64,000 bases of DNA from Dyadobacter sp. 50-39 (GTDB lineage: Bacteria > Bacteroidota > Bacteroidia > Cytophagales > Spirosomataceae), in contig MKSR01000012.1 of the NCBI GenBank assembly GCA_001898145.1, forward strand, positions 62,001-126,000, read 5' to 3'. How positions within the stretch are numbered: position 1 is the first letter of the stretch; every line of letters starts with the position of its first letter. Shown here piece after piece: positions 25,950-46,044 of this stretch. The translations under genes and the position numbers were made by a program. The notes below the pieces were generated by a model that saw only the letters and a program-made list of their open reading frames with translations, did no database searches and was not told the DNA's origin.

Positions 25950-27170
25950 ATGATAAACCGTAGAGATTTAATCAAGCATCTGTCCACGTTCCCTCTTCTG
26001 GGCGGGTTTCTGGGCAATGGCACCGCTGAGGCTGCCGGCCTGCTGGCCAATGCACCGGTGCGCAACCTCGCCAAGGAGCTGGGCATCCGTACATTTATTA
26101 ATGCAGCGGGTACCTACACTATGATGACCGGCTCACTGATGCAGGACGACGTGGTGGCGACGATCCAGGGTGCCGCGAAGGAATTTATGATGCTTGATGA
26201 AGTCCAGACCAAAGTAGGCGAGAAAATCGCCGCCATTACGCATGCCGAATCAGCGGTGGTGACTGCCGGCTGCTTTTCGGCGCTGACGCTCGGCCTCGCA
26301 GGCGTGCTCACGGGCATGGACCAGAAAAAAGTGGAAGCGCTGCCGCATTTGGAAGGCACCGGTATGAAGTCGGAAGTAATTATTCAGAAAGGCCACAACA
26401 TCGGCTACTCACATGCATTGACCAACACAGGCTGCAAAATTGTACAGGTCGAAACGGCGGAAGAATTGCAGAAGGCGATCAACGAAAAGACTGCATTGAT
26501 GTGGTTCCTGCACATTCAGTCGGACAAAGGACAAATCAAGCATGAGCAATGGATCGAGATTGCCAGAAAAAACGGCATTCCGACGATGATCGACATGGCT
26601 GCCGATGTGCCGCCGGTTGAAAACCTCTGGCGTTTCAACGACCTGGGCTTCGACCTCGTGTGCGTATCGGGCGGGAAAGCAATGCGCGGACCGCAAAGCG
26701 CGGGTATCCTCATGGGTAAAAAGCAATACATCGACGCCGCCCGCCTCAGCATGCCGCCACGTGGCTCCACCATCGGCCGCGGAATGAAAGTGAATAAAGA
26801 AGAAATCCTCGGCATGTATGTCGCGCTGGACAACTTCGTGAAGATGGACCACAAGAAAGAATGGAAAATCTGGGAAGACCGCGTGGCTACTATCGAAAAT
26901 GCCGTGAAAAGCGTGAAAGGTGTTGTCACCGAAGTGACTGTCCCTGAACTGGGTAACCACACCCCCACATTGAAAGTGTCGTGGGATGCCGCCAAAGTAA
27001 GCCTGCCTGTGAAGACATTACAGGAAAGCCTGCGCAAAGGCAACCCGTCGATTGAAGTAATGCCGGCCGAAAACAATTCGCTGACCATTACCACCTGGAT
27101 GCTCAAACCGGGCGAGGAGAAAATCGTAGCATCCAGATTGAAAGAAGAACTGTCGAAAGCAGTTGTTTAA
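25950..27170 (+). CDS. SelA-like PLP-dependent enzyme with Tat-type signal peptide
   Basis: The 406-residue fold-type-I PLP protein belongs to the SelA-related group that includes D-glucosaminate-6-phosphate ammonia-lyase. Visible features: TFINAAGTYTMMTGSLM, ESAVVTAGCFSALTLGLAGVL, PTMIDMAADVPP with D215 for the pyridine nitrogen, and CVSGGKAMRGPQSAGIL with the Schiff-base K243. The N-terminus MINRRDLIKHLSTFPLLGGF carries a twin-arginine motif (RR-x-LIK) and hydrophobic stretch, implying export as a folded holoenzyme, unusual for this family. Next to it is an EF_0837-type amidohydrolase, its usual genomic partner. A lyase acting on a 2-amino acid or sugar acid is likely, but the substrate is unknown. 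Confidence 0.85.
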   Translation: MINRRDLIKHLSTFPLLGGFLGNGTAEAAGLLANAPVRNLAKELGIRTFINAAGTYTMMTGSLMQDDVVATIQGAAKEFMMLDEVQTKVGEKIAAITHAESAVVTAGCFSALTLGLAGVLTGMDQKKVEALPHLEGTGMKSEVIIQKGHNIGYSHALTNTGCKIVQVETAEELQKAINEKTALMWFLHIQSDKGQIKHEQWIEIARKNGIPTMIDMAADVPPVENLWRFNDLGFDLVCVSGGKAMRGPQSAGILMGKKQYIDAARLSMPPRGSTIGRGMKVNKEEILGMYVALDNFVKMDHKKEWKIWEDRVATIENAVKSVKGVVTEVTVPELGNHTPTLKVSWDAAKVSLPVKTLQESLRKGNPSIEVMPAENNSLTITTWMLKPGEEKIVASRLKEELSKAVV

Positions 27171-27222
27171 ATATGTACAGTACCATTTAACATTCCTAAA
27201 CCCAACCTTTTCAAAAAGTAAA

Positions 27223-28476
27223 ATGCAACACAGGTCTATCCTTTTCACATTTCTGGCATGTTTGCTCGGCGTGGCTTCCCATGCCCAGACGTACAGCATA
27301 CTGATCAAGGGCGGCACGGTGATCGACCCGAAGAACAATATCAATCAGGTGATGGATGTCGGTATTTTCGAAGGGAAAATCAAAAAAGTGGCGAAGGATA
27401 TCGATCCGAAGGAGGCCCGCCAGGTGGTGGATGCCAAAGGGATGTATGTCACACCCGGATTGATCGATATCCATGGACACGTGTTTTTTGGCACCGAACC
27501 AAACCATTACCTCAGTAATGGTTTGGTAGCGGTTCCACCCGACGGCTTCACCTTCCGCGTGGGCGTGACGACCATCGTCGATGCGGGCGGAGCCGGCTGG
27601 GATTCGTTTTCCGAGTTCAAAAACAATGTGATTTTCAATTCCAAAACCCGCGTCCTTTCCTTCCTCAACATCGTCGGACAAGGCATGCGCGGCGGAAACT
27701 GGGAGCAGGACACGGCCGATATGGACCCGACCCTCGCTGCGGGTGTTGCCATCAAGAACCGCAACGACGTAGTCGGTTTCAAAGTGGCGCATTTCCAGGG
27801 TAAAGACTGGAAACCGGTTGACAATGCCGTCAAAGCGGGGAAACTGGCGAATATGCCGGTAATGGTCGATTTCGGGGGCAGTACCCCTCCGCTTCCGCTC
27901 GAAGAGCTGTTCATGAAACACCTCCGCCCGGGTGACATTTATACACATGCATACACCTTGCTCGAAGGTAATATCCGCGAAACCATTGTAGATGAAGCCA
28001 CCCGGAAAGTGAAACCGTTCGCGATCGAAGCGCGGAAACGGGGCATTGTTTTCGACGTCGGCTACGGCGGCGCGAGCTTCAATTACTCTCAGGCGATTCC
28101 GGCCATGAAAGCGGGTTTCTACCCCACTACCATCAGTACCGACCTTCATACCGGCAGTATGAACGGCTCCATGAAGGATATGCTGAGCATTATGTCGAAA
28201 TTCTATAATATGGGTATGGACCTGCCGTCCGTTATCAAAGCCAGCACCTGGGAGCCTGCCAAGGTGATCCACCGCGAGCAGTTGGGCCACATCACCGAAG
28301 GCGCGATCGCCGACGTTGCCGTGTTCTCCATGCGCCAGGGCAATTTTGGTTTTTATGACAAAACCGGCTACAAAGTAACTGGCAAAGAAAAACTGGAATG
28401 CGAGCTGACTGTCATGGGCGGAAAAATAGTTTATGATTTGAACGGAATTACGGAGCCGATCTATTTGACGAAATAA
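27223..28476 (+). CDS. Exported amidohydrolase/deacetylase family metallohydrolase (EF_0837/cog3964 type), copy 1
   Basis: The 417-residue protein has a signal peptide (about 1-21, ending HAQ) and an amidohydrolase-superfamily barrel: IKGGTVIDPKNNINQVMDV, PGLIDIHGHVFFG with metal ligands H84 and H86, VGFKVAHF with the bridging Lys187, DIYTHAY with H242, and ISTDLHTGSM with D307. The segment FDVGYGG carries Tyr281 where the family usually has His. Relatives (Atu3266, EF0837) were once called dihydroorotases and were shown to hydrolyse acetyl-(R)-mandelate, so an acyl-ester or acyl-amide of a hydroxy/amino acid is likely. The start ATG 27223 begins the signal sequence. It is 52 bp after the SelA-like gene. 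Confidence 0.87.
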   Translation: MQHRSILFTFLACLLGVASHAQTYSILIKGGTVIDPKNNINQVMDVGIFEGKIKKVAKDIDPKEARQVVDAKGMYVTPGLIDIHGHVFFGTEPNHYLSNGLVAVPPDGFTFRVGVTTIVDAGGAGWDSFSEFKNNVIFNSKTRVLSFLNIVGQGMRGGNWEQDTADMDPTLAAGVAIKNRNDVVGFKVAHFQGKDWKPVDNAVKAGKLANMPVMVDFGGSTPPLPLEELFMKHLRPGDIYTHAYTLLEGNIRETIVDEATRKVKPFAIEARKRGIVFDVGYGGASFNYSQAIPAMKAGFYPTTISTDLHTGSMNGSMKDMLSIMSKFYNMGMDLPSVIKASTWEPAKVIHREQLGHITEGAIADVAVFSMRQGNFGFYDKTGYKVTGKEKLECELTVMGGKIVYDLNGITEPIYLTK

Positions 28477-28600: not shown

Positions 28601-30334
28601 ATGTTGAAGAAACGTTTAAAACTTTCTGCTTCCCTGCTTATGCTGCTTGCATTGGGATTTACGCAGCATTCCGACCGGGACTTACCGGTTGTTAATACCA
28701 AAAATGGCGGCCTTTTCCTTCCGGATGGATTTGAGGCTACGGTGGTGGTCGATAGTCTTCCCGGCCGCGCGCGGCACATTGCCGTGAATGACAATGGCGA
28801 CATTTATGTAAAAGCAAGATTTGCCGATAAAGGAGAGTCCGTGATCGCACTGCGCGACACGAACAACGACGGCCGGGCCGACATTATCAAGCGTTTCGGC
28901 GGTGCTGCCAAAGAACGTGCCTACGGTACTGCTATGCGCATTTACAAAGGATATCTCTATTTCAGCTCCGAATTGGTCGTTTACAGATACAAGCTCACGC
29001 CGGGCAAACTCGTTCCTGAAAGCCCGGAAGAAGTGATTCTGACGGACGATCACCCGCACGGTATGCACGAACACATCGCCAAACCGATCACATTCGACGA
29101 TAAAGGCTTCATGTACGTGCCATTCGGTGCAAACTCAAACTGCTGCCAGGAGCAAAACCGCACACCGGGTTCGAAAGGGATGATGCCCTGCCCTATCCTG
29201 GAAGACCACGGCGGCATCTGGAAATTTGACGCCAACAAAACCGGCCAGTTACAGAAGGACGGTACCAAGTTTGCGACGGGCCTCCGAAGCGTAGTGGCAT
29301 TGGACTGGAATTTCCAGGATAACAACCTCTATGCAGTACAGCACGGCCGCGACGACCTGCTGCGACTCTGGCCACAGCTGTACAATGGCTGGCAGAGCGC
29401 ATTGCTGCCGTCGGAAGAATTCCTGAGGGTCAAAGAAGGTACCCACGCCGGCTGGCCGTACTGCTACTGGGACCAGATGCAATCCAAAAAGGTACTGAAC
29501 CCCGAATACGGTGGTGACGGTAAAATTGTTGGCGATTGCGACCAGTACGAGAAGCCGCTCATCGGTTTCCCTGGTCACTGGGCACCAAATGATATTCTTT
29601 TCTACCAGGGCAGCCAGTTTCCAGAGCATTACAAAAACGGTTCTTTCATCGCATTCCACGGATCGACCAACCGCGCGCCTTATCCGCAATCGAGCTACTT
29701 TATTGGATTTGTTCCATTCAAAAATGGCCAGGTTGCCGGGGAATATGAGATTTTCGCCGACGGTTTCGCCGGCCTGGACCCGATCGTGAACGTGAGCGAC
29801 GCCGTATACCGACCGATGGGGATCGCCATGGGTCCCGATGGTGCCATCTACATTGCTGAAACAGAAAAAGGCAAAATCTGGAAGGTGACCTACAAAGGCA
29901 ATAAAAAGAAATTCGCCAAAGCCGCATTGGCAAAAATGGAGCAGCGTAAAACAATGACGCACATCCGCACACCGGATTTCGTAAACGATAATCTGGACAA
30001 GGACAAACCCGTGGCAGGCGGAAAGGTTTACAGCGTGTACTGCACGGCCTGCCACCAGCGCAACGGGATGGGTGATTCACAGCGCTTCCCGCCGCTGGGA
30101 GGGGCTGAATGGGTTACGGGCGACAAAGAACGGCTGATCAAAGTGTTGCTCAACGGCCTGGAAGGTCCGATTGAGGTGAAAGGCCAGGCCTATAACAATG
30201 TGATGCCTCAGCACAGTTTTTTGAAAGACGACGAAATTTCAGAGGTACTGACCCACATCCGGAGCAATTTCGGAAACAATGCGAGCCCGGTGACAACCGA
30301 TGAGGTGGCCAAAGTAAGGGCGTCGCTCAAATAG
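28601..30334 (+). CDS. PQQ-type sugar (sorbosone/glucose) dehydrogenase fused to cytochrome c domain
   Basis: The 577-residue exported protein starts with a signal sequence (MLKKRLKLSASLLMLLALGF). A six-bladed beta-propeller of the soluble glucose/sorbosone dehydrogenase type (about residues 35-430) includes ARHIAVNDNGDIYV, HPHGMHEHIAKPITFDDKGFMYV, GTHAGWPYCYW and YRPMGIAMGPDGAIYIAE. A C-terminal class I cytochrome c domain has the haem motif CTACH (residues 481-485) and likely axial Met in NNVMPQHSFL. The fusion would pass electrons from sugar or alcohol oxidation directly to haem. The substrate cannot be read from sequence. Cysteines near 181-197 suggest a disulfide loop. Confidence 0.87.
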   Translation: MLKKRLKLSASLLMLLALGFTQHSDRDLPVVNTKNGGLFLPDGFEATVVVDSLPGRARHIAVNDNGDIYVKARFADKGESVIALRDTNNDGRADIIKRFGGAAKERAYGTAMRIYKGYLYFSSELVVYRYKLTPGKLVPESPEEVILTDDHPHGMHEHIAKPITFDDKGFMYVPFGANSNCCQEQNRTPGSKGMMPCPILEDHGGIWKFDANKTGQLQKDGTKFATGLRSVVALDWNFQDNNLYAVQHGRDDLLRLWPQLYNGWQSALLPSEEFLRVKEGTHAGWPYCYWDQMQSKKVLNPEYGGDGKIVGDCDQYEKPLIGFPGHWAPNDILFYQGSQFPEHYKNGSFIAFHGSTNRAPYPQSSYFIGFVPFKNGQVAGEYEIFADGFAGLDPIVNVSDAVYRPMGIAMGPDGAIYIAETEKGKIWKVTYKGNKKKFAKAALAKMEQRKTMTHIRTPDFVNDNLDKDKPVAGGKVYSVYCTACHQRNGMGDSQRFPPLGGAEWVTGDKERLIKVLLNGLEGPIEVKGQAYNNVMPQHSFLKDDEISEVLTHIRSNFGNNASPVTTDEVAKVRASLK

Positions 30335-30461: not shown

Positions 30462-30893
30462 ATGTTGAAAAACAATATTTTAGCCGCAAGCTTTATCATT
30501 CTTTCCGGAATCGGCCTCGTCGGGTTTTCTTCCGGAAAGCGCAATTTCACACACACAAGCCAGGATCCCTGGAAAGCTCCAGCCTGGGCCGATACCCTGA
30601 AAAGCCCCTATCACGAAGAGCCGCTGACACTAGCTCAGGGCGAAGAGCTGTTCACCTTATATTGCTCTTCCTGCCATGGCGAAGGTGGTTACGGCGACGG
30701 GGCCGCGGGCGGCGCACTGGGTCAGAAGCCCGCCAACTTTCACGATACGCTCGTGAAGGCACAAAGCGATGGTTCGCTGTTCTGGAAAATGTCCAACGGC
30801 CGTGGCAACATGCCGCCGTTCCAGGATGTATTTACCGCCGAGCAGCGCTGGCAGCTAGTGGCTTACATCCGGCATTTGGGTAAAATAGAGTAG
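30462..30893 (+). CDS. Small exported c-type cytochrome
   Basis: The 143-residue protein has an N-terminal hydrophobic signal/anchor (about residues 5-24) and one class I cytochrome c domain with CSSCH (C68, C71, H72) and the axial Met117 in GRGNMPPF, ending in the usual C-terminal helix QRWQLVAYIRHL. It lies between two PQQ-type dehydrogenase genes and is the obvious electron acceptor for them. A terminal oxidase connection is inferred. Confidence 0.9.
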   Translation: MLKNNILAASFIILSGIGLVGFSSGKRNFTHTSQDPWKAPAWADTLKSPYHEEPLTLAQGEELFTLYCSSCHGEGGYGDGAAGGALGQKPANFHDTLVKAQSDGSLFWKMSNGRGNMPPFQDVFTAEQRWQLVAYIRHLGKIE

Positions 30894-30977: not shown

Positions 30978-32459
30978 ATGTTACATTACAGCCGCATTAT
31001 CAGGTCCGGATTCACTTCAGCGCTTGCCCTGGGCATGGCGTTTTCTGTTTTCGGACAACAACGGGAGGTGTCCACCTCCGTCCCAAAACCACTTCGCGAC
31101 GACATTACTATTGAGGAGTACATGAAAGTAGAGCCGGAAGCGGTCCGCCTCATCCAGCATCCGGTTACCGGTGAGATCTACTACACCACATTCTTCGGCG
31201 ATGTGGTTAAAATTGTGATCGAAAACGGAAAGCCCGTGAGCAAAAAACTGCTTTCTGTCGAAGATCACGGCATTCCCCGTCTGCAAGGCGCTGCATTCCA
31301 TGGCAATACCCTCTTCCTGGCCGGAAATGTGAGCGTGAACAACAACAAGGGCAACAAAGGCCGGATGGTCCGTTACGAAATGACGCCCGGCGCGGACAAA
31401 CCCGAAATGACGGTGGTATTCAACACCGTGGAATACGGGGCCAACAAAACTACTTTCGATCACGGTTGGAACGCCCTGGAAATCAGCCCGGACGGTAAAT
31501 ACATCTACGTAAACACCGGCGCCCGCACGGATCACGGCGAAGTTCAGGATAATGGAGGCGAGTATCCCAATGCACGTGACAATGCACTCACGGCCAACAT
31601 CTTCCGTTTCCCTATCAATTCCAAAGACCTCCTGCTGTCGACGGACCTGGCTAAACTGAAAGCCGACGGGTACATTTTCGCGGAAGGCATCCGTAATGCC
31701 TACGATATGGCTTTCGATGCAAAGGGTAATCTTTTCGCCGTTTCCAATTCCGGCGATTACGACCATCCCGAGGACATGTTCTGGGTTCGCAAAGGCCGCC
31801 ATTATGGCTTCCCGTGGGTAATGGGCGGTATCGAAAACCCTCAGCAGTTCCCGGATTTCCAGGCCGATCCTGAGAAAGACCCGTTCCTCAGCAAATTTGC
31901 ATTCGCCTTTCTTATGAAATACTTTCACAACGACCCGGATTTCCCGAAACCTCCGGCCGGTGTGAAGTTCACCCCATCTGTTCAAAACCTGGGCCCGGAT
32001 GCCAACGAATACCGCGACCGAAAAACTGGTGTGGTGATGGACGGTGATACGACCGGCGTCACAGTGGGTACATTCAACGCGCATTCGTCGCCGCTTGGCA
32101 TTTTCTTCGATACCCACAATGCGCTGGGCAAAGACCTTACCGGCGATGGCTTCGTGATCCGCTATACCGGTGGCCCGCGTAATGGTGTCGTGAACCCCAA
32201 CCCGCTGCGCAGATATGGCAAGGACCTGCTGCACCTGGAAATGACGTACGACAAGAAGACCGACAATTTCAAAACCAAAACCACCAGCATAATTAACAAC
32301 TTCACAGCCCCTACCGACGCATTGCTCGTGGGCAATACGCTGTACGTCATTGAATACGGCGGCAAGCAGGGCGGTAACAAGGCCGGAGGAAGCCTTTGGA
32401 AGATTACGCTTCCTGCTAATGACAAGCTGGTGAAAAAAGCCAAAAAGAAAACTTCGTAA
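30978..32459 (+). CDS. PQQ-dependent sugar dehydrogenase (GSDH/YliI-like), exported
   Basis: The 493-residue protein has a signal peptide (about residues 1-27) and a soluble-glucose-dehydrogenase-type propeller: RLIQHPVTGEIYYTTFFGDVVKI, FDHGWNALEISPDGKYIYVNTGAR (catalytic-His type HxW region), GIRNAYDMAFDAKGNLFAVSNSGD, GRHYGFPWVMGG, and PLGIFFDT. No haem motif is present, unlike the fused homologue upstream. It probably oxidises a sugar or polyol with PQQ and hands electrons to the small cytochrome c encoded just upstream. PQQ synthesis genes are not in the window. Confidence 0.85.
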   Translation: MLHYSRIIRSGFTSALALGMAFSVFGQQREVSTSVPKPLRDDITIEEYMKVEPEAVRLIQHPVTGEIYYTTFFGDVVKIVIENGKPVSKKLLSVEDHGIPRLQGAAFHGNTLFLAGNVSVNNNKGNKGRMVRYEMTPGADKPEMTVVFNTVEYGANKTTFDHGWNALEISPDGKYIYVNTGARTDHGEVQDNGGEYPNARDNALTANIFRFPINSKDLLLSTDLAKLKADGYIFAEGIRNAYDMAFDAKGNLFAVSNSGDYDHPEDMFWVRKGRHYGFPWVMGGIENPQQFPDFQADPEKDPFLSKFAFAFLMKYFHNDPDFPKPPAGVKFTPSVQNLGPDANEYRDRKTGVVMDGDTTGVTVGTFNAHSSPLGIFFDTHNALGKDLTGDGFVIRYTGGPRNGVVNPNPLRRYGKDLLHLEMTYDKKTDNFKTKTTSIINNFTAPTDALLVGNTLYVIEYGGKQGGNKAGGSLWKITLPANDKLVKKAKKKTS

Positions 32460-32496: not shown

Positions 32497-32964
32497 ATGA
32501 AATCTGAAAGAAGATCTCTAATCAAAAAACTTTTTGCCTCCGTAGCCGGCATTGCAGGCATCGGCGCGGCGTCCAAAGTGCAGGCGGAAGCTGCTGCTCC
32601 TGCGCCTCAAAAAGAAGTAGGTGATGTCGAAATGTATCAGGACGTTCCTCTTTTCTCGGGCCATACCAAGTATAACAACCTCGTTTTCGTAGCTGGAAAA
32701 GGCGCTCACTTCGACGGAGACATTACCGCTCACACCAAACACGTCCTGGACGAGTTGGAAAAAGAACTCATCAAAGCAGGTTCTTCAATGGAAAAAGTGC
32801 TGAAATGTTCCGTTTTCCTTCACGACCTGAATGACTACAAAGCTATGAACGAAGCCTACAAAGGCCGTTTTGGCAGCAAACCGCCATGCCGTACCACCGT
32901 AGCGGTATATGGCGGCGTGCCAGGCGATTCACTCGTTGAAATCGACTGTATCGCTTACGTTTAA
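32497..32964 (+). CDS. RidA family protein with Tat-type signal peptide
   Basis: The 155-residue protein is a RidA/YjgF enamine/imine deaminase preceded by an unusual leader MKSERRSLIKKLFASVAGIAG with a twin-arginine motif and AxA-like cleavage region (about residues 1-33). The RidA domain includes YNNLVFVAGKGAHFDGDITAHTKHVLDELEKELIKAGSSMEKVLKCSVFLHDLNDY, then the catalytic R132 in PCRTTVAVYG and E148 in LVEIDCIAYV. RidA normally hydrolyses reactive enamines released by PLP enzymes in the cytosol. Here it is encoded in the same locus as a Tat-signal PLP enzyme, so it may do this in the periplasm. Confidence 0.9.
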   Translation: MKSERRSLIKKLFASVAGIAGIGAASKVQAEAAAPAPQKEVGDVEMYQDVPLFSGHTKYNNLVFVAGKGAHFDGDITAHTKHVLDELEKELIKAGSSMEKVLKCSVFLHDLNDYKAMNEAYKGRFGSKPPCRTTVAVYGGVPGDSLVEIDCIAYV

Positions 32965-33256: not shown

Positions 33257-33868
33257 TTGAACAAGAAACAACGTATCGCTGAAGAGAATGAAGTTCTTAT
33301 CAATCTCTGGCACCAAAGCCAGGCAGGGGACAGTCTGGCATTTTGCCAGCTAGTCGACAAGCAATACCGTACGTTGTTCAATTACGCCTGCAACTTCACA
33401 TCCGACCGCGAGTTTATTAAAGATGCCATCCAGGACCTGATGATCCACATCTGGGAAAGGCGTCAGAACATTCAGATCCAGTTTGTTACCATTTACTTCC
33501 TGCGCGCACTGCGTAACCAGCTCATGCAGGAGTTCCGCCGGAACAACAGCTCGCACCCACTCCTCGACATCGACGAAGCAAGCCATGTTTCCGACTATCA
33601 GACAATCGAAACCGAGATCGAGCGAAACGAACTGCTGAATGAGAATCAGGTCAAAGTACGCTGCGCGATCGAAGAGCTGCCCCGTCGCCAAAAAGAAGCG
33701 GTCTTTCTGAAATACTTCGAAGGCATGGACAACGAGCAGATAGCCGACCTGATGCAGGTCAACCGCCAATCTGTCGCCAACCTGCTTTTCAAAGCCATCT
33801 CTGCGCTCAAACAGCACATTCACCCGATCAGCAATTTGCTTTTGCTCTGCTTAACATTCCCCTTCTAG
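33257..33868 (+). CDS. ECF RNA polymerase sigma factor, second copy
   Basis: The 203-residue protein has sigma region 2 (DSLAFCQLVDKQYRTLFNYACNF, EFIKDAIQDLMIHIWERRQNI, VTIYFLRALRNQLMQEFRR) and region 4 (AIEELPRRQKEAVFLKYFEGMDNEQIADLMQVNRQSVANLLFKAISALK). The likely start is TTG at 33257; no ATG is available before conserved region 2 and a stop codon lies at 33230. The matching fecR gene lies 2.2 kb downstream, separated by an acyltransferase and HicAB. The last ~12 residues are hydrophobic (PISNLLLLCLTFPF), unusual for an ECF factor. Confidence 0.85.
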   Translation: MNKKQRIAEENEVLINLWHQSQAGDSLAFCQLVDKQYRTLFNYACNFTSDREFIKDAIQDLMIHIWERRQNIQIQFVTIYFLRALRNQLMQEFRRNNSSHPLLDIDEASHVSDYQTIETEIERNELLNENQVKVRCAIEELPRRQKEAVFLKYFEGMDNEQIADLMQVNRQSVANLLFKAISALKQHIHPISNLLLLCLTFPF

Positions 33869-37348: not shown

Positions 37349-40300
37349 ATGTCAAAAAGAGTACAATTTCACCATGCTTTACAGAAAATCATGCGCATTA
37401 CTCTGTATCAAGCCCTGCTCTCCATCGCGTTCAGCACTTTCGTTCATGCGAACGATGTGCGCGGACAACGTGTGCTGGAACAAAAAGTGACTTTGCGTTT
37501 AGCCAATTCCGAGATTGACAAGGCGTTGGAAAAGATCGAGAATGCGACGAAGGTTAAGTTCATGTACAATCCTCAGATCTTCAATAATCAGAAAGCATCC
37601 TATAAGTTTCAGGACGAATCATTATCCGAAGTTCTCAGTAAAATTCTGACCCCGCATAAAGTTACTTACGAAGTGGTACAGGACCGCATTATCCTGCGCC
37701 GCGAACAGGCCCCTGTTGAAGAAAATGCCACCAAAACTTCACCGAAACGCAATGTTACGGGAAGCGTAAAGGATGAGACCGGTTCCGGCCTCCCGGGCGT
37801 AAGCGTGCTCGTAAAAGGTACCCAGAGAGGTACTTCGAGCGACGCTGATGGTAAATTCTTTCTCGATATTCCCGATGGCGAAGTGGCTTCCGCGGTGCTG
37901 GTTTTCAGCTTTGTAGGTTACACCACACAGGAAGTTACCGTGGGAAGCCAAACGAGCGTAGACGTTCAGCTCGTGCCGGAAGCCAAGGCACTGAACGAGG
38001 TGGTGGTGACGGCTTTGGGTATTTCCAAAGAGAAAAAGGCACTTGCTTACGCGGTGACCGAGGTAAAAGGAAGCGAGTTTACACAGGCCCGCGAAAACAA
38101 CGTAGCCAATGCATTGACAGGTAAAATTGCCGGCGTTAACGCCACCGGTATGTCTACCGGCCCTGGCGGTTCGAGCCGCATCATCATCCGCGGTAACGGC
38201 TCTTTGAGCGGTAATAACCAGCCTCTTTACGTGATCAACGGTATGCCCATGGACAACAGCGTACCGGGCGGCGGCAACGCTTCCGACGGTAACGGTAACA
38301 ACACCGACCGCGGTGACGGTATCGGCGGTATTAACCCCGACGATATCGAGTCGATCTCCGTTTTGAAAGGCGGTCCTGCGGCTGCGCTTTACGGTGCCCG
38401 CGCTTCCAATGGTGTGATTTTGATTACAACCAAAAAAGGCCGCGCACAAAAAGGCATCGGTGTGGAATACAACGGGAACTTCTCGGTAGACAACCTTTCG
38501 ATCATTCCTGACTGGCAATATGAGTACGGTCAAGGTGTGGACGGTGTAAAGCCTACCACCCAAACGCAGGCAAAAAGCTCGGGACGTTTGTCATACGGTG
38601 CTAAAATGGACGGCTCGCCCGTAGTTCAGTTCGACGGTGTGGAGCGCCCTTATTCGCCTCAGAAAAACAACCTGAAAAACTTCTATCGCACCGGTACCAA
38701 CTACATTAATTCCATCTCATTCACAGGGGGTAATGAAACCGTGAACTTCCGTTTCGGTCTGAACAACACCAGCTCGAACAGCATCGTACCTAATTCGTCT
38801 TTCAACAGAAGGATCGCTAACCTGAACCTGAATGCGTTTCTGGGTAAAAAACTGAGCATTGAAACCGTCGTTCAGTATAACATCGAAAACGGCCACAACC
38901 GTCCGAAAGTAGGTTATGCCGACTACAACCCGCACTGGGCAACCTACCTGGTAGCCAATACCGTGGATATCAGAAGCCTTTCCCCGGGTTATGATGCGAC
39001 AACCGGCAAAGAGATCGAATGGAACCCTGTTCCCGCTGCTCCGAACCCTTATTTCGTGATCAATAAGTTCAAGAATGAGGATACCAAAAACCGCTTCCTT
39101 GGACAGGCAAACATCAAGTACGACATTCTCGACAACCTGTTCATTAAAGGTAGCGTGAGCCGCGACTACTACAACTTCAACTATGAATTCGTAGTACCGA
39201 CCAACAACGCTTACCAGCCGCTCGGAACGTATGAAGCGAAGAAAGTGACGTCTTCTGAAACCAACGGTATGCTGACTTTGAACTACTCGAAAGATTTTTC
39301 AGAGAACCTTAACTTCTCAGCACTCGTGGGTGGTAATATCCAGCGCAGCATCTACGACCAGACCGCGTTCAACGGAGCAGAATTTACAATCCCGGGCTTT
39401 TACAGCTTTACCAACCTGGCTACATCGACGGTCGTTCCTACCTACAACAAAAGCGGAATCAACTCCGTGTTCGGTTCGGCAGACATTGGCTACAAAGGAT
39501 TTGCCTATCTGACCGTTTCAGGCCGTCAGGACTGGTTCTCGGTATTGAACAGCAAAAGCAACAGCATTTTCTACCCGGCCATCGGCGGATCATTGATCCT
39601 CTCCGAAGCATTCACGCTTCCTGCCGCGGTCAGCTTCGCGAAGTTGCGCGGTTCTTGGGCTCAGGTAGGTGGCGCTACGGTAGTCCCTTACCAGATCTAC
39701 CAAAGCTACGCTATGGCAGTGGGTGGCCACAACGGCCGTCCGGTACAGCAGCTGTCTTCTTCCGTGGTACCTAACCCGGATTTGAAACCACTGACTTCTA
39801 CTACCTATGAGGCAGGTTTGGAAGCGAAATTCCTGCAAAACCGCCTGGGTATCGACATTACCCTGTACAACCGCAAGACGACCAACGACATTGTGCAAAG
39901 CAACATCGCATCGTCGGCTGGTTATACGGCTGCATTGCTGAACGTAGGTGAACTGAGCAACAAGGGTGTTGAACTTTTGCTGACCGGAACGGCCATCAAG
40001 CAAAGCAACTTCATGTGGGACATCAGCTACAACATGGCTTACAACAAGAGTGAGATCGTTCAGCTGGCTCCTAACCTGAACCAGCTGAGTATCGGAACCG
40101 GTGTGGGCGGCGGTTTGATCAACAACGTGGTAGGCGGTACTTACGGTGAAGTGTGGGGCTACAACAAGCTGAAAGACGCCAGCGGCAACACGGTATTCAA
40201 TACGGCCAGCGGCTATGCGGTACGCGGTAACCTCGAAAAACTGGGTAACGGAACACCTCCATGGACGATGGGTATTACCAACAACTTCAAATACAAAAAC

Positions 40301-40783
40301 TTCTCGCTGAACATTCTCATCGACGGCAAGTTCGGAAGTGTGGTTTACTCCAACCTGTACCAGTATGCCTACCGCTTCGGTTTGCCGAAAGAAACACTTC
40401 CTGGTCGTGAAACCGGCTTGACTGTGACCGGAGTAACACCGGAAGGAGCGCCATTCAGCAAAACCTGGGAGAAGAAAGACATTGATACTTACTATGACAA
40501 TGACAAGAACTACACAGGTATGTTCGTGTTCAACAATGACTTCATTAAGCTGCGTCAGGTGATTCTGAGCTACAACCTGCCTGCTTTCTCAGTCTTCGGT
40601 GCCAAGCTGCAAAGTGCTTCCGTATCGATCGTGGGACGTAACCTGGCGCTGCTTTACAAGGATAAGCGTAACAAATACTTCGATCCGGAGTCGAGCTACA
40701 CCAACGGCAACGCGCAAGGTCTGGAAGCATTCGGTGTGCCTAGAACGAGAAACCTCGGCGTGAACCTGACAGTGAAGTTTTAA
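37349..40783 (+). CDS. SusC/RagA family TonB-linked outer-membrane transporter with STN domain, second copy
   Basis: From ATG 37349 (MSKRVQFHHALQKIM) the protein has 1144 residues: signal sequence (about 16-34), STN domain (VTLRLANSEIDKALEKIENATKVKFMY), carboxypeptidase-regulatory-like domain (VTGSVKDETGSGLPGVSVLVKG), plug (NEVVVTALGISKEKKALAYA; IRGNGSLSGNNQPLYVINGMPMDN; NPDDIESISVLKGGPAAALYGARASNGVILITTKKG) and barrel ending VNLTVKF. The GTG and ATG codons further upstream give extended leaders and are not preferred. It forms the second transport pair with the SusD gene 21 bp downstream. Confidence 0.95.
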   Translation: MSKRVQFHHALQKIMRITLYQALLSIAFSTFVHANDVRGQRVLEQKVTLRLANSEIDKALEKIENATKVKFMYNPQIFNNQKASYKFQDESLSEVLSKILTPHKVTYEVVQDRIILRREQAPVEENATKTSPKRNVTGSVKDETGSGLPGVSVLVKGTQRGTSSDADGKFFLDIPDGEVASAVLVFSFVGYTTQEVTVGSQTSVDVQLVPEAKALNEVVVTALGISKEKKALAYAVTEVKGSEFTQARENNVANALTGKIAGVNATGMSTGPGGSSRIIIRGNGSLSGNNQPLYVINGMPMDNSVPGGGNASDGNGNNTDRGDGIGGINPDDIESISVLKGGPAAALYGARASNGVILITTKKGRAQKGIGVEYNGNFSVDNLSIIPDWQYEYGQGVDGVKPTTQTQAKSSGRLSYGAKMDGSPVVQFDGVERPYSPQKNNLKNFYRTGTNYINSISFTGGNETVNFRFGLNNTSSNSIVPNSSFNRRIANLNLNAFLGKKLSIETVVQYNIENGHNRPKVGYADYNPHWATYLVANTVDIRSLSPGYDATTGKEIEWNPVPAAPNPYFVINKFKNEDTKNRFLGQANIKYDILDNLFIKGSVSRDYYNFNYEFVVPTNNAYQPLGTYEAKKVTSSETNGMLTLNYSKDFSENLNFSALVGGNIQRSIYDQTAFNGAEFTIPGFYSFTNLATSTVVPTYNKSGINSVFGSADIGYKGFAYLTVSGRQDWFSVLNSKSNSIFYPAIGGSLILSEAFTLPAAVSFAKLRGSWAQVGGATVVPYQIYQSYAMAVGGHNGRPVQQLSSSVVPNPDLKPLTSTTYEAGLEAKFLQNRLGIDITLYNRKTTNDIVQSNIASSAGYTAALLNVGELSNKGVELLLTGTAIKQSNFMWDISYNMAYNKSEIVQLAPNLNQLSIGTGVGGGLINNVVGGTYGEVWGYNKLKDASGNTVFNTASGYAVRGNLEKLGNGTPPWTMGITNNFKYKNFSLNILIDGKFGSVVYSNLYQYAYRFGLPKETLPGRETGLTVTGVTPEGAPFSKTWEKKDIDTYYDNDKNYTGMFVFNNDFIKLRQVILSYNLPAFSVFGAKLQSASVSIVGRNLALLYKDKRNKYFDPESSYTNGNAQGLEAFGVPRTRNLGVNLTVKF

Positions 40784-40804
40784 TCATTCAAAATTCCAGT
40801 GACG

Positions 40805-42367
40805 ATGAACAAATTCCTGAAACTATCATATATGGCTGCCCTGGCCGCCTTGATCTCCTCTTGTGACAACGGGTTTGAAGAAATGAATGTGAACCCTAAT
40901 GCATCCGTCGAGGCTGTACCAGGCTACCTGTTTACCCGGGCACAGCTGACCACCGTGAGCAACAACTTCACCGGTGCGGCGTACCTGACGATCGGAGGCT
41001 CCATGCAGCATTTTGCAACTTACAAAGAGGTACCTGCGGCAGGTGACAAATATTTCAATTATTCCTACTCTACCGGAAGCTGGGCATTGTATGGCGGTGA
41101 CCCTGCCACTGCCGGTGCGGTAATCGACATCCTGCAAGTGATCGACGCGGTGAAGGTTTCGCCGGAAGACGTGAACAAACTGTCGGTGTCGCGTATCTGG
41201 AAAGCCTACCTTTTCCACCGCCTCACCGATATGTACGGCGACATTCCGTACTCGGAAGCGGGCCGCGGGTTGAGCGACAAAAACTACACGCCCAAATACG
41301 ATACCCAGGCGGCCATTTATGCTGACTTGCTGAAAGAGCTGGACGAGTCGATCGCCGCCTTCAATCCGGCAAAAGCAACATTCGGCAACTCCGACCTCGT
41401 ATATGGTGGCGACGTTACCAAATGGAAAAAATTTGCCTACTCGCTTATGCTCCGCCTGGGCATGCGTCTTACCGAAGTGGATCCGGCATCGGCTGAAACA
41501 TGGGTGAAGAAAGCGATAGCCGGTGGTGTGATCACGGCCGATTCCGACCTTGCCAAAATCGACTACGTGGATGGCTCTATCACCGCAAGCCGTAACTTCA
41601 TCGCGGCGGGCCTGATGGGTACCGATTATGTAAACCCCGGCGGCGACAATGTGGAAGGCGGAAAATTCGCCAAAACGCTCATCGACCATTTGAAGGACAC
41701 CAAAGACCCGCGCCTGAATGTGATCTCGATCGTATGGGTTCCGTCTGCGGACGGCAAGACATTCACTGCCGATACCACCACTGCATTGCAGAAAGGTATG
41801 CCGAACGCCGCGTTCAACAACCTTCCCGGCGATTTCAACAGCTATTCGGAGCCTAACCCGGCGACGATCCTGAAATACAGCGCGCCATTGCTGGTACTCA
41901 CACCGGCCGAAATGCACCTGTTGCTGGCTGAGGCGAACCTCAGAGGCTGGTACAGCGGAGCCACTGCCGAAGCTTCCTACAACACGGCCGTTACTTCGGG
42001 CCTGAAACAATGGGCATTGTTCGGATCGGCGGGCGTTATTTCGGATGCCAGAATCGCGGCTTACCTGAAAAACAATCCATTCAACACCGGCGGTACGATG
42101 GCGCAGAAAATGGAGCAGATCGGTACGCAGAAATGGGTAACGCTCTTCCTCGAAGACGAATACGAGATATTCTCCAACTGGCGCCGCACAGGCTATCCCA
42201 AGCTGACGCCGACCAATTATCCGGGTAACCTCACAGGCGGCAAGATCCCTACTCGCTTCGTGATCCCCGATTCGGAAGAGCAATACAACAAAGATAATTT
42301 CTACGAAGCCCGTACACGCCAGGGCGGTACGAACACGCTTTCGAGTGTAGTTTGGTGGGATAAATAA
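40805..42367 (+). CDS. SusD/RagB family nutrient-binding outer-membrane lipoprotein, second copy
   Basis: The 520-residue protein starts MNKFLKLSYMAALAALISSC with lipobox Cys about residue 20 and follows the SusD-like_2 pattern: FEEMNVNPNASVEAVPGYLFTRAQ, VSRIWKAYLFHRLTDMYGDIPYSEAGRG, YDTQAAIYADLLKELDESIAAF, DVTKWKKFAYSLMLRLGMRLTEV, and KMEQIGTQKWVTLFLEDEYEIFSNWRRTGYPKLTP, ending SSVVWWDK. The end VWWDK mirrors the first SusD (LWWDK), suggesting related ligands. A strong terminator follows. Confidence 0.94.
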   Translation: MNKFLKLSYMAALAALISSCDNGFEEMNVNPNASVEAVPGYLFTRAQLTTVSNNFTGAAYLTIGGSMQHFATYKEVPAAGDKYFNYSYSTGSWALYGGDPATAGAVIDILQVIDAVKVSPEDVNKLSVSRIWKAYLFHRLTDMYGDIPYSEAGRGLSDKNYTPKYDTQAAIYADLLKELDESIAAFNPAKATFGNSDLVYGGDVTKWKKFAYSLMLRLGMRLTEVDPASAETWVKKAIAGGVITADSDLAKIDYVDGSITASRNFIAAGLMGTDYVNPGGDNVEGGKFAKTLIDHLKDTKDPRLNVISIVWVPSADGKTFTADTTTALQKGMPNAAFNNLPGDFNSYSEPNPATILKYSAPLLVLTPAEMHLLLAEANLRGWYSGATAEASYNTAVTSGLKQWALFGSAGVISDARIAAYLKNNPFNTGGTMAQKMEQIGTQKWVTLFLEDEYEIFSNWRRTGYPKLTPTNYPGNLTGGKIPTRFVIPDSEEQYNKDNFYEARTRQGGTNTLSSVVWWDK

Positions 42368-42535: not shown

Positions 42536-43810
42536 ATGATCAAAAAAGTATTTATCGCCGCCGCCCTCTTCTGCTCTGCCGGTTTTGCCGCACACGCACA
42601 GAAGTACTCGATCGTCATCAAAGGCGGTCACGTGATTGACCCGAAAAACAATATCAACAGCATTATGGATGTGGCGTTGAAAGGCGACACGGTCATGCTC
42701 GTTGCAAAAAACATCGACGCCAAGGAAGGCGTGCAGGTGGTGAATGCCAAAGGCCTTTTCGTAACGCCCGGCCTGATCGACATGCATTCGCACAACTTCT
42801 TCGGGACCAAAATGGACCAGACTTACAGCAACGGGCCTAATGCCCTCCCACCGGACGGTTTCACCTTCCGCACAGGGGTTACCACGGTGGTGGACGCAGG
42901 CTGCGCCGGCTGGAAATCATTCCCCGATTTCAAAAAACAGACCATTGACGCTTCGCGCACCCGCGTGCTCTCGTTCCTGAACATCGTAGGCGAAGGCATG
43001 CGCGGCGGCACCTACGAGCAGAACGTGGAAGACATGGACGCGGCCGCTACCGCCAAAGTCGCGAAAGAGTATCCCGAATATATCGTAGGCATTAAGCTCG
43101 CGCACTTCAACGGGTACAACTGGACGCCCACCGACCGTGCCGTGGAAGCCGGCAGGCTGGCCAATATCCCCGTCATGATCGACTTCGGCGGAAGCCAGCC
43201 GGTTTTGCCGATCGAAGAGCTGTTTATGAAACACCTTCGCCCGGGCGACATTTTCACGCACTGCTTCGGCCAGCTCGCCAGCCGCGAGCCGATCGTGGAT
43301 GTGAAGGCGGGTAAAGTGAAGCCGTTCGTCTATGAAGCCCGCAAGAAAGGCATCATTTTCGACGTAGGTTACGGCGGTATCAGCTTCGCATTCTCACAGG
43401 CAATACCGGCCATTAAAACCGGTTTCTACCCCAACACCATCAGCACCGACATCCACACCGGCAGCATGAACAATGCGATGAAAGACATGCTTAATGTGAT
43501 GTCCAAATTCCTGGCGATGGGTATGGACCTGCCGGCGGTGATCAAGGCCAGCACCTGGGCCCCCGCACAAGCCATTCACCGCGAAGAGCTGGGTAACCTT
43601 TCCGTGGGCTCACGGGCGGACGTTTCCGTACTGCGCGTGCTCGATGGCAAGTTCATGATGAACGACACCGGCACTTTCGGTTTCTTCGATTACACCGGTA
43701 CCAAGGTGACCGGCAAACAGAAACTCGAAGCCGAAGTGACGATCCGCGCGGGTAAAGTGGTGTACGACCTCAACGGCCTGACCAACCCCATCGTCGTTTC
43801 AAGAAGATAA
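42536..43810 (+). CDS. Exported amidohydrolase/deacetylase family metallohydrolase (EF_0837/cog3964 type), copy 2
   Basis: The 424-residue protein is a close paralogue of the one at 27223: signal peptide (MIKKVFIAAALFCSAGFAAHAQ), IKGGHVIDPKNNINSIMDVAL, PGLIDMHSHNFFG with H84 and H86, VGIKLAHF with Lys187, DIFTHCF with H242, FDVGYGG with Tyr279 in place of the expected His, and ISTDIHTGSM with D305. It also has an insertion near residues 350-365 absent from copy 1. Like copy 1 it follows a SusCD operon, so each uptake system has its own secreted hydrolase. The substrate is unknown; an N- or O-acyl acid is inferred. Confidence 0.87.
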   Translation: MIKKVFIAAALFCSAGFAAHAQKYSIVIKGGHVIDPKNNINSIMDVALKGDTVMLVAKNIDAKEGVQVVNAKGLFVTPGLIDMHSHNFFGTKMDQTYSNGPNALPPDGFTFRTGVTTVVDAGCAGWKSFPDFKKQTIDASRTRVLSFLNIVGEGMRGGTYEQNVEDMDAAATAKVAKEYPEYIVGIKLAHFNGYNWTPTDRAVEAGRLANIPVMIDFGGSQPVLPIEELFMKHLRPGDIFTHCFGQLASREPIVDVKAGKVKPFVYEARKKGIIFDVGYGGISFAFSQAIPAIKTGFYPNTISTDIHTGSMNNAMKDMLNVMSKFLAMGMDLPAVIKASTWAPAQAIHREELGNLSVGSRADVSVLRVLDGKFMMNDTGTFGFFDYTGTKVTGKQKLEAEVTIRAGKVVYDLNGLTNPIVVSRR

Positions 43811-43816
43811 AACCGC

Positions 43817-43858: not shown

Positions 43859-43908
43859 TGCCTAATTTTACCTACTCAATATATCCCTGCCGTACATTTT
43901 CCAGTCTT

Positions 43909-44841
43909 ATGAAACTACCGATTCTCTCTTTAACGACGATCCTGACCCTGACATTCGGAGGCTTGCAAACTGCCGAGGCGCAGACCATCCCGAAAGAAGA
44001 ACTGATTTTCCTGACCTCCGAATGGAAAGGCGAGCGCTTCCCCGACGGCCGCCCGAAAATCTCCGACGAGCTCGTCCGCCGCGCCAGGGAAATCAATATC
44101 GAAGAAGCCTGGGTAGTGCTCAAAAACGAAGGCTATAACTGCCAGTTCGAAGGTAACTGGAAGATCGTACACGACGACGTGGTGATTGCCGGCCGTGCAC
44201 TGACGGCGCAGTTCATGCCGTCGCGTCCGGATATCGAGAAAAACATCAAGGACCGCGGTGCCAAGCAGGGCCGCATTGGAAACACCAACTCCTGGCCGAT
44301 CGACATGCTCGGCAAAGGCGACGTATACGTGGCCGACGGCATGGGCAAAATCGTGGAAGGAACGCTGATCGGCGATAACTTGGCGAATTCTATTTATGCC
44401 AAAACGGGCAATGGCGTGGTATTCGATGCCGGCGTGCGTGATCTTGACGGCCTTTCCAAAATTCCTGGCTTCAATGCATTCGTGCGCGATTTTGACCCGT
44501 CCTATCTGAAAGATGCCGTGGTAACCGGCATCAATACGCCCATCCGCATCGGCCGTGCCGTGGTGCTTCCCGGCGACCTGGTTTTGGCCAAAAAAGAAGG
44601 GGTAATTTTTGTACCTGCGCACATGGTCGAGAAAGTGGTGCAAACCGCGGAATTCATCGCGCTGCGTGACAAATTCGGCATTCAAATGCTGAAGGAAGGC
44701 AAATACACCCCGGGCCAGATCGACAGCCAATGGACCGATGCCCTCAAAAATGATTTCCTGAAATGGCTCGATAAAAACCCGAACGAGATTCCCATGAAGC
44801 GCTCGGAACTCGACGAATACATGAAAAAAAGAACCTGGTAA
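43909..44841 (+). CDS. Exported RraA-like protein (HMG/CHA aldolase-oxaloacetate decarboxylase fold)
   Basis: From ATG 43909 the protein has 310 residues: a signal peptide (about 1-24, ending AEAQ), an N-terminal helical extension, and an RraA-fold domain: VIAGRALTAQF, DVYVADGMGKIVEGTLIGDNLANSIYAKTGNGVVFDAGVRDLDGL, containing the family motif G-D-N-L (155-158) and the R177-D178 pair that binds substrate and Mg2+ in HMG aldolase. VLPGDLVLAKKEGVIFVPAHMVEKVV follows. An active aldolase or 2-oxoacid decarboxylase is therefore likely, rather than an RNase E regulator, but in the periplasm. The C-terminal ~60 residues are an extension of the usual family length. Confidence 0.82.
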   Translation: MKLPILSLTTILTLTFGGLQTAEAQTIPKEELIFLTSEWKGERFPDGRPKISDELVRRAREINIEEAWVVLKNEGYNCQFEGNWKIVHDDVVIAGRALTAQFMPSRPDIEKNIKDRGAKQGRIGNTNSWPIDMLGKGDVYVADGMGKIVEGTLIGDNLANSIYAKTGNGVVFDAGVRDLDGLSKIPGFNAFVRDFDPSYLKDAVVTGINTPIRIGRAVVLPGDLVLAKKEGVIFVPAHMVEKVVQTAEFIALRDKFGIQMLKEGKYTPGQIDSQWTDALKNDFLKWLDKNPNEIPMKRSELDEYMKKRTW

Positions 44842-44869
44842 GCGAGTAATCCGGCCTGGTTTTCAGCAT

Positions 44870-44902
44870 TTCCTGTTTGGTAAAACAGACAGGAATTTTC
44901 TT
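44870..44902 (+). terminator. Intrinsic terminator after the RraA-like gene
   Basis: TTCCTGTTTG (44870-44879) and CAGACAGGAA (44886-44895) form a 10-bp stem with one G-T pair, followed by TTTTC. It may still allow partial read-through to the transporter gene 35 bp further on. Confidence 0.7.
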
Positions 44903-44937
44903 TCGCATTTTCAAAATTGCATTTTAAATACATTAAT

Positions 44938-46044
44938 ATGAATATTTACAAGCTCATGTCTGGCGTCGCCGTGGTTTGCCTGGTGATAGCGCTATACTTC
45001 GCTTTCACGGGTAACCTGCCATCGGCCGGTCCCTTCTTTATCGCATTCTTTTTGTCGCTGGCCATCAGTTTCAGGGGTTACGAAAAGCTGAAAGGCTTTA
45101 CCTACACCACCGTCATTTTTGCGGCGGTTACCACAGCATTGTATTATCCCCAGCATTTCCTTACCGTAGGCGATTTCAAACTTTCTACCCTCATTACCCC
45201 CCTGATCCAGATCATCATGTTCGGGATGGGAACTTCCATGAGCTTCGGTGATTTTGTGGGTGTGGTTAAAATGCCCAAAGGCGTGCTGATCGGCGTAGTG
45301 AGCCACTTTATCATTATGCCCACGATTGGTTATACGCTAGCCAACATCAGCGGTTTCCCGCCTGAAATTGCAGCGGGTATCATCCTCATCGGTTGCTCGC
45401 CGAACGGTATGGCCTCCAATGTGATTTCATATCTTGCAAAGGCAAACCTGGCTTTGTCCATCACGATTACCGCCATTTCTACCATGCTCGCACCGATCGT
45501 AACGCCGGTACTCATGAGCATGCTCGCGGGCGCATTCGTGAAGATCGACACGCTGCATATGATGTGGGATATTATCAAAATGGTGATTATTCCTATCGGC
45601 GCCGGATTGCTTTTCAACAAGCTTTTCAGCGGAAAGGTAAAATGGCTCGACGCCGCCATGCCGCTGGTATCGATGGGCGGGATCGCATTCATTATCGTGA
45701 TCATTACGGCCGCGGGCCGCGACAGCCTGCTTTCCATCGGGCCCGCATTGCTGCTCCTCGTATTGATTCACAACCTTTCCGGCTACACGTTGGGTTACTG
45801 GTCGGGACGGCTGTTCCGCATGAGCGAACGCGACTGCCGTACGATAGCCATTGAAGTAGGAATGCAAAATGGTGGTCTGGCTTCGGGTATCGCCAAGGAA
45901 ATGGGTAAAATGGCCACCGTAGGCCTCGCCCCAGCGATCTTCGGGCCACTGATGAACATCACCGGCTCCATCCTGGCCTCCTGGTGGCAAGGCAAGCCAA
46001 CCGGGGATGAAGATACTTATGTAGAAACGGGCAGGGCCCATTAA
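44938..46044 (+). CDS. Bile acid:sodium symporter (BASS) family transporter
   Basis: The 368-residue inner-membrane protein has about ten helices and BASS motifs: QIIMFGMGTSMSFGDF, PKGVLIGVVSHFIIMPTIGYTLA, IILIGCSPNGMASNVISYLAKANLALSITITAISTMLAPIVTPVLM, and RTIAIEVGMQNGGLASGIAKE. BASS proteins import organic anions with Na+, including keto acids and pantothenate as well as bile acids. As the only cytoplasmic-membrane carrier in this enzyme locus, it is a candidate importer of the final keto-acid product. That role is inferred from context. Confidence 0.88.
   Translation: MNIYKLMSGVAVVCLVIALYFAFTGNLPSAGPFFIAFFLSLAISFRGYEKLKGFTYTTVIFAAVTTALYYPQHFLTVGDFKLSTLITPLIQIIMFGMGTSMSFGDFVGVVKMPKGVLIGVVSHFIIMPTIGYTLANISGFPPEIAAGIILIGCSPNGMASNVISYLAKANLALSITITAISTMLAPIVTPVLMSMLAGAFVKIDTLHMMWDIIKMVIIPIGAGLLFNKLFSGKVKWLDAAMPLVSMGGIAFIIVIITAAGRDSLLSIGPALLLLVLIHNLSGYTLGYWSGRLFRMSERDCRTIAIEVGMQNGGLASGIAKEMGKMATVGLAPAIFGPLMNITGSILASWWQGKPTGDEDTYVETGRAH

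Follow-up and report, generated by a model that had tools for sequence, protein, structure and literature searches.

A 64,000-nucleotide stretch of the genome of the soil bacterium Dyadobacter sp. 50-39 (contig MKSR01000012.1, positions 62,001 to 126,000, referred to here as the window) contains a cassette, entirely on the plus strand, in which genes for a SelA-like pyridoxal phosphate (PLP) enzyme, an amidohydrolase (AmH1), a pyrroloquinoline quinone (PQQ)-type propeller (PQQ1), a cytochrome c, a second propeller (PQQ2) and a RidA protein are consecutive, with intergenic gaps of 37-127 bases (Table 1). RidA is followed by genes for an extracytoplasmic function (ECF) sigma factor, an acyltransferase, FecR, SusC2, SusD2, a second amidohydrolase (AmH2), an RraA-like protein and a BASS carrier, the last two gaps (AmH2-RraA and RraA-BASS) being 98 and 96 bases if ATG starts are assumed. 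On one side the locus is flanked by an ECF/FecR/SusCD set and on the other by a GNAT-ThiC block. The host genome (7.7 Mb) belongs to the Dyadobacter group, and its SelA-like protein is up to 99% identical to those of named relatives. The SelA-like enzyme, RidA, two amidohydrolases, RraA-like protein, cytochrome c and BASS carrier listed at this locus by a first-pass annotation were all found; of the two SusCD pairs that it counted, both exist, but SusC1D1 (20725-25705) lies just upstream of the block and only SusC2D2 lies inside it.

Table 1. Genes of the cassette and its upstream neighbours, in window coordinates.
Feature	Coordinates	Strand	Remarks
Exported 7-bladed lactonase (PF10282)	17513..18616	+	In 29/29 Dyadobacter loci; match start <2 kb from SelA in 12
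ECF sigma factor 1	18916..19458	+	
FecR 1	19525..20562	+	
SusC1, TonB-dependent transporter	20725..24102	+	Variable partner
SusD1	24131..25705	+	Variable partner
Tat-leader SelA/DgaE-like fold-type-I PLP enzyme	25950..27170	+	Probably an ammonia-lyase; likely substrate an unphosphorylated 2-amino-3-hydroxy acid
AmH1, Sec-leader COG3964/PRK09237-type amidohydrolase	27223..28476	+	Probable N-deacylase; ATG 27223
PQQ1, AA12/aldose-dehydrogenase-like propeller	28601..30334	+	C-terminal cytochrome c domain
Cytochrome c	30462..30893	+	
PQQ2, soluble-glucose-dehydrogenase-like propeller	30978..32459	+	
Tat-leader RidA	32497..32964	+	Probable periplasmic enamine/imine deaminase
ECF-type sigma factor 2	33257..33868	+	Sigma-70 region 4
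FecR 2	36032..37138	+	
SusC2, TonB-dependent transporter	37304..40783	+	
SusD2	40799..42367	+	
AmH2, second Sec-leader COG3964-type amidohydrolase	42536..43810	+	62% identical to AmH1; ATG 42536
Sec-leader RraA-like aldolase/decarboxylase	43909..44841	+	D-X20-R-D motif; ATG 43909
BASS/PanS-like carrier	44938..46044	+	

The SelA-like protein begins with MINRRDLIKHLS and RidA with MKSERRSLIKKLF, which include the twin-arginine stretches RRDLIK and RRSLIK, respectively, and AmH1, PQQ1, the cytochrome c, PQQ2, AmH2 and RraA were judged by eye to have general secretory (Sec)-type leaders. The twin-arginine motif is present in 59 of 61 SelA-like proteins (41/42 in Dyadobacter and 18/19 elsewhere) and in 41 of 45 RidA proteins (30/30 and 11/15), compared to a background of 20 of 644 unlabelled open reading frames (ORFs). 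Of the two SelA-like exceptions, one (L091) stems from a wrong ORF start and the other (L121) has the variant motif MINRRKTLK, while the four RidA exceptions lack RR (L067), read TTRRATFKK (L118) or have RK forms (L119 and L121). A home-made hydrophobicity rule, not SignalP, called Sec-type leaders on 68/70 amidohydrolases, 45/46 PQQ1 (one of these was called Tat, for twin-arginine translocation), 33/36 PQQ2 and 20/20 RraA proteins, and was positive for 1/48 ECF, 0/14 GNAT and 0/10 ThiC controls; the rule is a loose one, as it also passed a leaderless Rhizobium Rid protein and 145 of 357 unlabelled ORFs longer than 200 amino acids. TatC is encoded in the genome, which together with the twin-arginine leaders marks the SelA-like protein and RidA as predicted Tat substrates. 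The export signals that had been read on the PLP enzyme, RidA, the amidohydrolases and RraA are also conserved in relatives, and they suggest that these proteins, of normally intracellular kinds, are exported and act outside the cytoplasm. Many cassettes also encode a second Rid subtype, whose leader resembles those of Sec substrates or lipoproteins and whose gene often adjoins that of the Tat-leader RidA (L117, L118, L119, L121, L122, L123-L125 and L127, and L055, L056, L058 and L060-L062 in Dyadobacter).

The order SelA-AmH1-PQQ1-cytochrome c-PQQ2-RidA is retained in all 29 Dyadobacter loci. In 17 Dyadobacter downstream regions, RraA was found in 17, BASS in 15 and AmH2 in 14, and a second RidA-SelA pair adjoins AmH2 in two (L089 and L090). 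SusC1 is much more variable, being at least 75% identical in 9 of the 29 loci, about 40% identical in 5 and undetected within the stretch in 15, where SusC genes running off a stretch were left out of the counts. A survey of 59 genomes, including the window's own, used cut-offs of E<=1e-20 for SelA, E<=1e-60 for the amidohydrolase and E<=1e-25 for RidA, and identified SelA in 34 genomes, the amidohydrolase in exactly the same 34, and RidA in the same 34 plus one (G010), such that the three are jointly present or absent in 58 of 59 genomes. In G010 a lone Tat-leader RidA (61% identical; L159, 8851-10271) lies between orthologues of the window's major facilitator superfamily (MFS) gene and its GNAT and ThiC genes (86, 82 and 88% identical, respectively), and apart from this RidA, none of the window genes from 16746 to 46044 was detected in that slot. 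Of the two exported lactonases that had been suggested as contributors, the one at 17513 belongs to the 7-bladed lactonase family and accompanies the cassette in all 29 Dyadobacter loci, but the SGL/SMP-30 lactonase at 10172 was rejected as a member of the block, since it is retained in G010, which lost the cassette.

Conservation inside the genus reflects shared ancestry; therefore, the weight of the argument rests on loci outside Dyadobacter. The SelA-like gene is patchily distributed (in an even draw of 296 Bacteroidota genomes, 7 have it, the window's own among them), and the 7.7-Mb genome itself contains six RidA-family matches, four matches over the cut-off of the amidohydrolase model NF006689 and two RraA-like matches, so that these few copies should seldom come within 20 kb of each other by chance. 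The same genome has a second AmH-AmH-PQQ1 group with no SelA or RidA nearby (L147, G000:C13, 7303-11608).

Outside the genus, cassette genes turn up again in a different order, both in further families of Bacteroidota and on a plasmid from Acidobacteriota, and a sugar oxidase and a lactonase frequently accompany them. Among 18 SelA loci outside Dyadobacter, 13 have a Rid gene, 15 an amidohydrolase, 11 a sugar-dehydrogenase-like gene, 8 a lactonase, 4 RraA and 5 BASS; these loci do not amount to 18 independent cases, as L119 and L120 come from one genome and several others share a genus or family, and the Granulicella locus (L096) was scored from its annotation. No cassette partner was found within the stretch for three of the 18 (L072, L073 and L120), two of which (L072 and L120) lie close to contig ends. 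The Granulicella plasmid carries a row of RraA, SelA-like, RidA, second PLP enzyme, amidohydrolase, lactonase and BBE-domain flavin adenine dinucleotide (FAD) oxidase genes, and its RidA is the best plasmid match to that of the window (64% identical over 105 residues). Here the oxidase replaces the PQQ-type enzymes of other loci, which fits oxidation at C1 as a step of the pathway. The survey of plasmids covered 12 of 238 records with a SelA-like match; the RidA relatives on Natrialba and Roseibium plasmids have no adjoining SelA-like gene. Co-occurrence across relatives had been set beforehand as a test of the proposed route, and the proposal survives it, since loci outside Dyadobacter also bring the genes together, in varying order.

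Several other arrangements were observed. In L070 (with same-sized genes in L071) genes for a sodium:solute symporter and an L-lactate permease, rather than BASS, adjoin the SelA-like gene; an amidohydrolase and PQQ2 are present in L070, with no Rid found within the stretch. A Tat-leader SelA-like paralogue adjoins a GH92 glycosidase (PF07971) in L076 (6626-10168), with no cassette partners nearby. A separate subfamily of Tat-leader SelA-like proteins with a C-terminal extension is represented in L077 (8746-10422), in Granulicella and beside the cassette in L117, and is split into two ORFs in L133. On a Sinorhizobium plasmid, a fused SelA-like protein adjoins phosphoenolpyruvate (PEP) mutase and other phosphonate-type genes (L101, 6935-8530).

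The SelA-like protein of the window scores below the NCBIfam cut-offs for both DgaE (156.3 bits, cut-off 600) and its subfamily model (189 bits, cut-off 385). Among solved structures the nearest is that of an amino-sugar-acid lyase, with PDB 8t7j as the second-best solved chain. In an alignment of 31 unfused exported homologues, numbered according to DGL (7lc0 chain), Lys213 and Asp189 are conserved in all 31, arginine occurs at positions 301, 332 and 346 in none, and the His162-His163 pair is absent from all 31. Manual docking placed Arg301, Arg332 and Arg346 of DGL near the substrate phosphate (PMC9529869), and the loss of this site is consistent with a compartment free of sugar phosphates. 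The low scores and the absent phosphate site led us to reject an identification with DgaE itself. According to the same source, the DGL H163A mutant releases an enamine; RidA is mentioned there as an enzyme that degrades compounds of this kind (PMC9529869). This fits a co-exported RidA, although the link is not exclusive. In a tree that left out the partial sequence L133, exported SelA-like proteins fall into one clade (support 0.999, 36 of 46 tips) that includes a leaderless Sinorhizobium relative, with leaderless haloarchaeal forms next to it and sequences that bear the His pair outside. The window enzyme probably acts as an ammonia-lyase on a 2-amino-3-hydroxy acid that carries no phosphate.

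AmH1 and AmH2 score 449.8 and 451.5 bits against NF006689 (cut-off 371 bits), a model that we take to correspond to COG3964. The six metal ligands of this family are presumably those of Atu3266 (HxH, K, H, H, D); five are kept in both window proteins, with the beta-5 His replaced by Asp. This His is kept in only 4 of 76 aligned rows (three proteins, one counted twice), all of them cytosolic-type. AmH1 is probably an N-deacylase. RidA matches PF01042 (70.4 bits, cut-off 27.3) and lies below the cut-off of NCBIfam TIGR00004 (63.2 bits, cut-off 106.25). The motifs PP(C/V)R(T/S)TV and (V/I)E(I/M)DCIA, whose Arg and Glu we take to be the active-site residues, each occur in 45 of 45 Tat-type homologues, and the protein is probably a periplasmic enamine/imine deaminase. 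The RraA-like protein matches PF03737 (65.7 bits, cut-off 24.5) and shares with 20 of 20 locus homologues the D-X20-R-D motif, presumably that of RraA-like aldolases/decarboxylases, which is absent from the Granulicella RraA. The BASS carrier matches PF01758, and its nearest NCBIfam model is PanS (232.7 bits, under the cut-off of 400).

The second exported RraA-like gene of the genome adjoins a Tat-leader enzyme of the enolase superfamily (MR_MLE, PF13378; L148, 9272-11779), a superfamily with many sugar-acid dehydratases; the pair is possibly an exported sugar-acid dehydratase with its aldolase, and this neighbourhood fits exported RraA proteins acting on 2-keto-3-deoxy acids. The genome also contains a homologue of 2-keto-3-deoxy-6-phosphogluconate (KDPG) aldolase over the cut-off; therefore, imported 2-keto-3-deoxy acids could be used. 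The claim of two PQQ-type dehydrogenases is firmer for PQQ1, which is over the PF07995 cut-off, than for PQQ2, which falls just under it (23.9 versus 25 bits). Low-confidence models of both proteins rank PQQ sugar dehydrogenases first: the best fold match of the PQQ1 model (pLDDT 67.6) is AA12 of Trichoderma (E 3.6e-18) and that of the PQQ2 model (pLDDT 66.0) is soluble PQQ glucose dehydrogenase (E 1.1e-14). Both are sugar-dehydrogenase-like propellers with putative PQQ binding.

The cassette is a real and recurring catabolic gene set with predicted exported products; its mode of action would resemble those of the ong and dga pathways, but it belongs to neither. In Pseudoalteromonas, the ong cluster (GlcNAc1A) imports oxidised chitooligosaccharides and encodes the deacetylase OngB, the PLP deaminase OngC and the RidA-family protein OngD; OngB and OngC are predicted to be cytoplasmic, and OngD is essential, with a role that its authors describe as unknown (PMC9537276). 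On our reading, the two systems would share outer-membrane import, an amidohydrolase-type deacetylase, a PLP deaminase, RidA and an unphosphorylated amino-sugar acid as substrate. However, OngB is of the D-aminoacylase type, an origin supported by later work (PMC12017989), and OngC is of fold type III, whereas the window has COG3964-type and SelA-like proteins with export leaders. DGL and DgaE are SelA-like lyases whose catalytic Lys and Asp are kept here, and in Enterococcus a COG3964 amidohydrolase neighbours the lyase; in contrast, their substrate is phosphorylated and intracellular, and the window-type enzymes lack the phosphate arginines and the His pair. No Rid gene was found in the Enterococcus and Niallia dga-type stretches.

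Rhizobiaceae loci with ABC transporters contain the trio of COG3964 amidohydrolase, RidA and SelA-like protein (L099, L155, L156 and L160), although their SelA-like proteins are leaderless and the five aligned keep the His pair; no COG3964 amidohydrolase was found in the stretches L098 and L154 (the latter from Paraburkholderia). In Phyllobacterium the amidohydrolase, RidA and SelA-like genes lie near a glucosamine-6-phosphate deaminase (nagB-type) gene. Chitin clusters of haloarchaea include genes for DGA, glucose dehydrogenase and RutC (PMC12343721), and in Haladaptatus we found a cytosolic SelA-like relative near a glucose dehydrogenase, a Rid protein and a PIG-L deacetylase. The haloarchaeal loci thus resemble the cassette in combining a SelA-like lyase, a sugar dehydrogenase and Rid, and both aligned proteins lack the His pair; they differ in that the SelA-like protein is leaderless, no COG3964 amidohydrolase is annotated in the two stretches, and one of the two is without Rid. 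The cytosolic relatives near amino-sugar genes in Phyllobacterium and Haladaptatus support an amino-sugar-acid substrate, as do the sugar dehydrogenases, the lactonases and the relationship to DgaE.

On balance, and with somewhat more confidence than doubt, we interpret the cassette as an extracytoplasmic pathway for amino-sugar acids. From the genes and leaders we infer the following order of steps. An N-acylated amino sugar, or the corresponding aldonate, would pass through SusCD into the periplasm, where the PQQ-type dehydrogenases would oxidise C1 to a lactone, passing electrons to cytochrome c, and a lactonase would open the ring. The amidohydrolases could then strip the N-acyl group off the N-acyl-D-amino-acid-like aldonate, and the Tat-exported RidA would convert the enamine released by the lyase to a 2-keto-3-deoxy acid and ammonia. 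RraA may cleave this acid, or the cell may import it uncut; BASS is the candidate carrier of the oxo-acid across the inner membrane. The original claim of one extracytoplasmic route is retained as far as the leaders and the co-occurrence are concerned, both being conserved, but RraA, BASS and SusC1D1 are not constant members.

Several observations weigh against this interpretation. RraA and BASS are optional, since most stretches outside Dyadobacter are without them, and exported SelA-like genes without any cassette partner in the stretch occur in L076 and L128-L130 in addition to L072, L073 and L120. The models of PQQ1 and PQQ2 have low confidence, and a search for the PQQ-synthesis protein PqqC gave no match in the genome or in any of 14 controls, which makes it uninformative. 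In the exported amidohydrolases the beta-5 metal-ligand His is replaced: 71 of 76 aligned rows have Asp there, and one has Glu. The exported SelA-like protein of L121 (4976) has a His in the 163 column, although loop gaps make this column uncertain. RidA also lies near cytosolic SelA-like proteins that keep the His pair (5 of 5 Rhizobiaceae/Burkholderiaceae loci); therefore, loss of the pair is not needed to explain RidA, and the idea that loss of His163 explains it can be kept only as a partial one. The home-made hydrophobicity rule, stricter than the motif alone, called Tat for just 41/61 SelA-like and 37/45 RidA proteins, and the genome has a further exported Rid protein distant from any SelA (L151). 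The main dissent comes from a variant Dyadobacter cassette (L124, 9767-18332; also L125 and L127) with a gamma-glutamyltranspeptidase and an M81/MlrC peptidase, peptide-type enzymes that stand against the convergence of the ong, haloarchaeal and Phyllobacterium parallels on amino-sugar acids. The variant cassettes also encode a Tat-leader protein of 455 amino acids with no Pfam match.

These peptide-type enzymes are among the reasons to consider that the same exported chemistry (deacylation, elimination and deamination) acts on N-acyl-D-beta-hydroxy amino acids or on peptide-derived D-amino acids. COG3964 enzymes act on D-configured acyl compounds. OngC is reported to deaminate D-Ser and D-Thr as well (PMC9537276). 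We consider such substrates improbable given the sugar-dehydrogenase-like genes (11/18) and lactonases (8/18) of the loci outside Dyadobacter, the FAD oxidase and lactonase of Granulicella, and the closest solved enzyme. It is also possible, if quite improbable, that the exported SelA-like clade runs another PLP reaction (C-C cleavage, racemisation or another elimination) and that RidA is a general clean-up protein of the periplasm. The scores under the DgaE and subfamily cut-offs, the related fused form in the PEP mutase cluster of Sinorhizobium and the exported Rid of L151 would all be consistent with such a role, but the catalytic Lys and Asp are conserved and the SelA-like enzyme is repeatedly paired with the amidohydrolase and RidA.

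The leaders could instead be non-functional, leaving the PLP enzyme and RidA in the cytoplasm, since the home-made rule failed 19/61 SelA-like and 5/45 RidA leaders; Tat leaders are less hydrophobic. This is highly improbable considering that the twin-arginine motif is kept across families, the phosphate site is lost, the partners bear Sec leaders and the second Rid subtype in the cassettes is Sec- or lipoprotein-like. That the genes are mere neighbours without a common pathway can hardly be true: synteny in Dyadobacter, which holds even the unrelated GNAT and ThiC genes, is not decisive, but the recurrence of reshuffled sets in other families and Acidobacteriota and the block loss in G010 led us to reject a chance neighbourhood. 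The flanking GNAT gene (46101-46646, minus strand), conserved beside the cassette in Dyadobacter, resembles ArsN1 and phosphinothricin acetyltransferase models at scores under their cut-offs.

The cassette may represent, though we hold this only tentatively, a complete PLP-based deamination outside the cytoplasm, in which Tat exports both the lyase and a dedicated enamine deaminase in folded form. The oxo-acid would then be the only compound to be imported, and no ATP would go into phosphorylating the substrate. Among the matches listed in the open-access literature, we found no description of exported RidA or SelA-like enzymes in the titles and abstract openings. To our knowledge, RidA and enamine stress have been studied as cytosolic matters. 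If the proposal is correct, a reactive enamine would be made and destroyed in the periplasm without ever meeting cytosolic PLP enzymes, and the conserved pair of exported lyase and RidA would show that some bacteria keep enamine chemistry outside the cytoplasm. The role of OngD would become testable in a natural system in which lyase and RidA are exported together, and the pathways for oxidised chitin and D-glucosaminate would gain an unphosphorylated counterpart in the periplasm.

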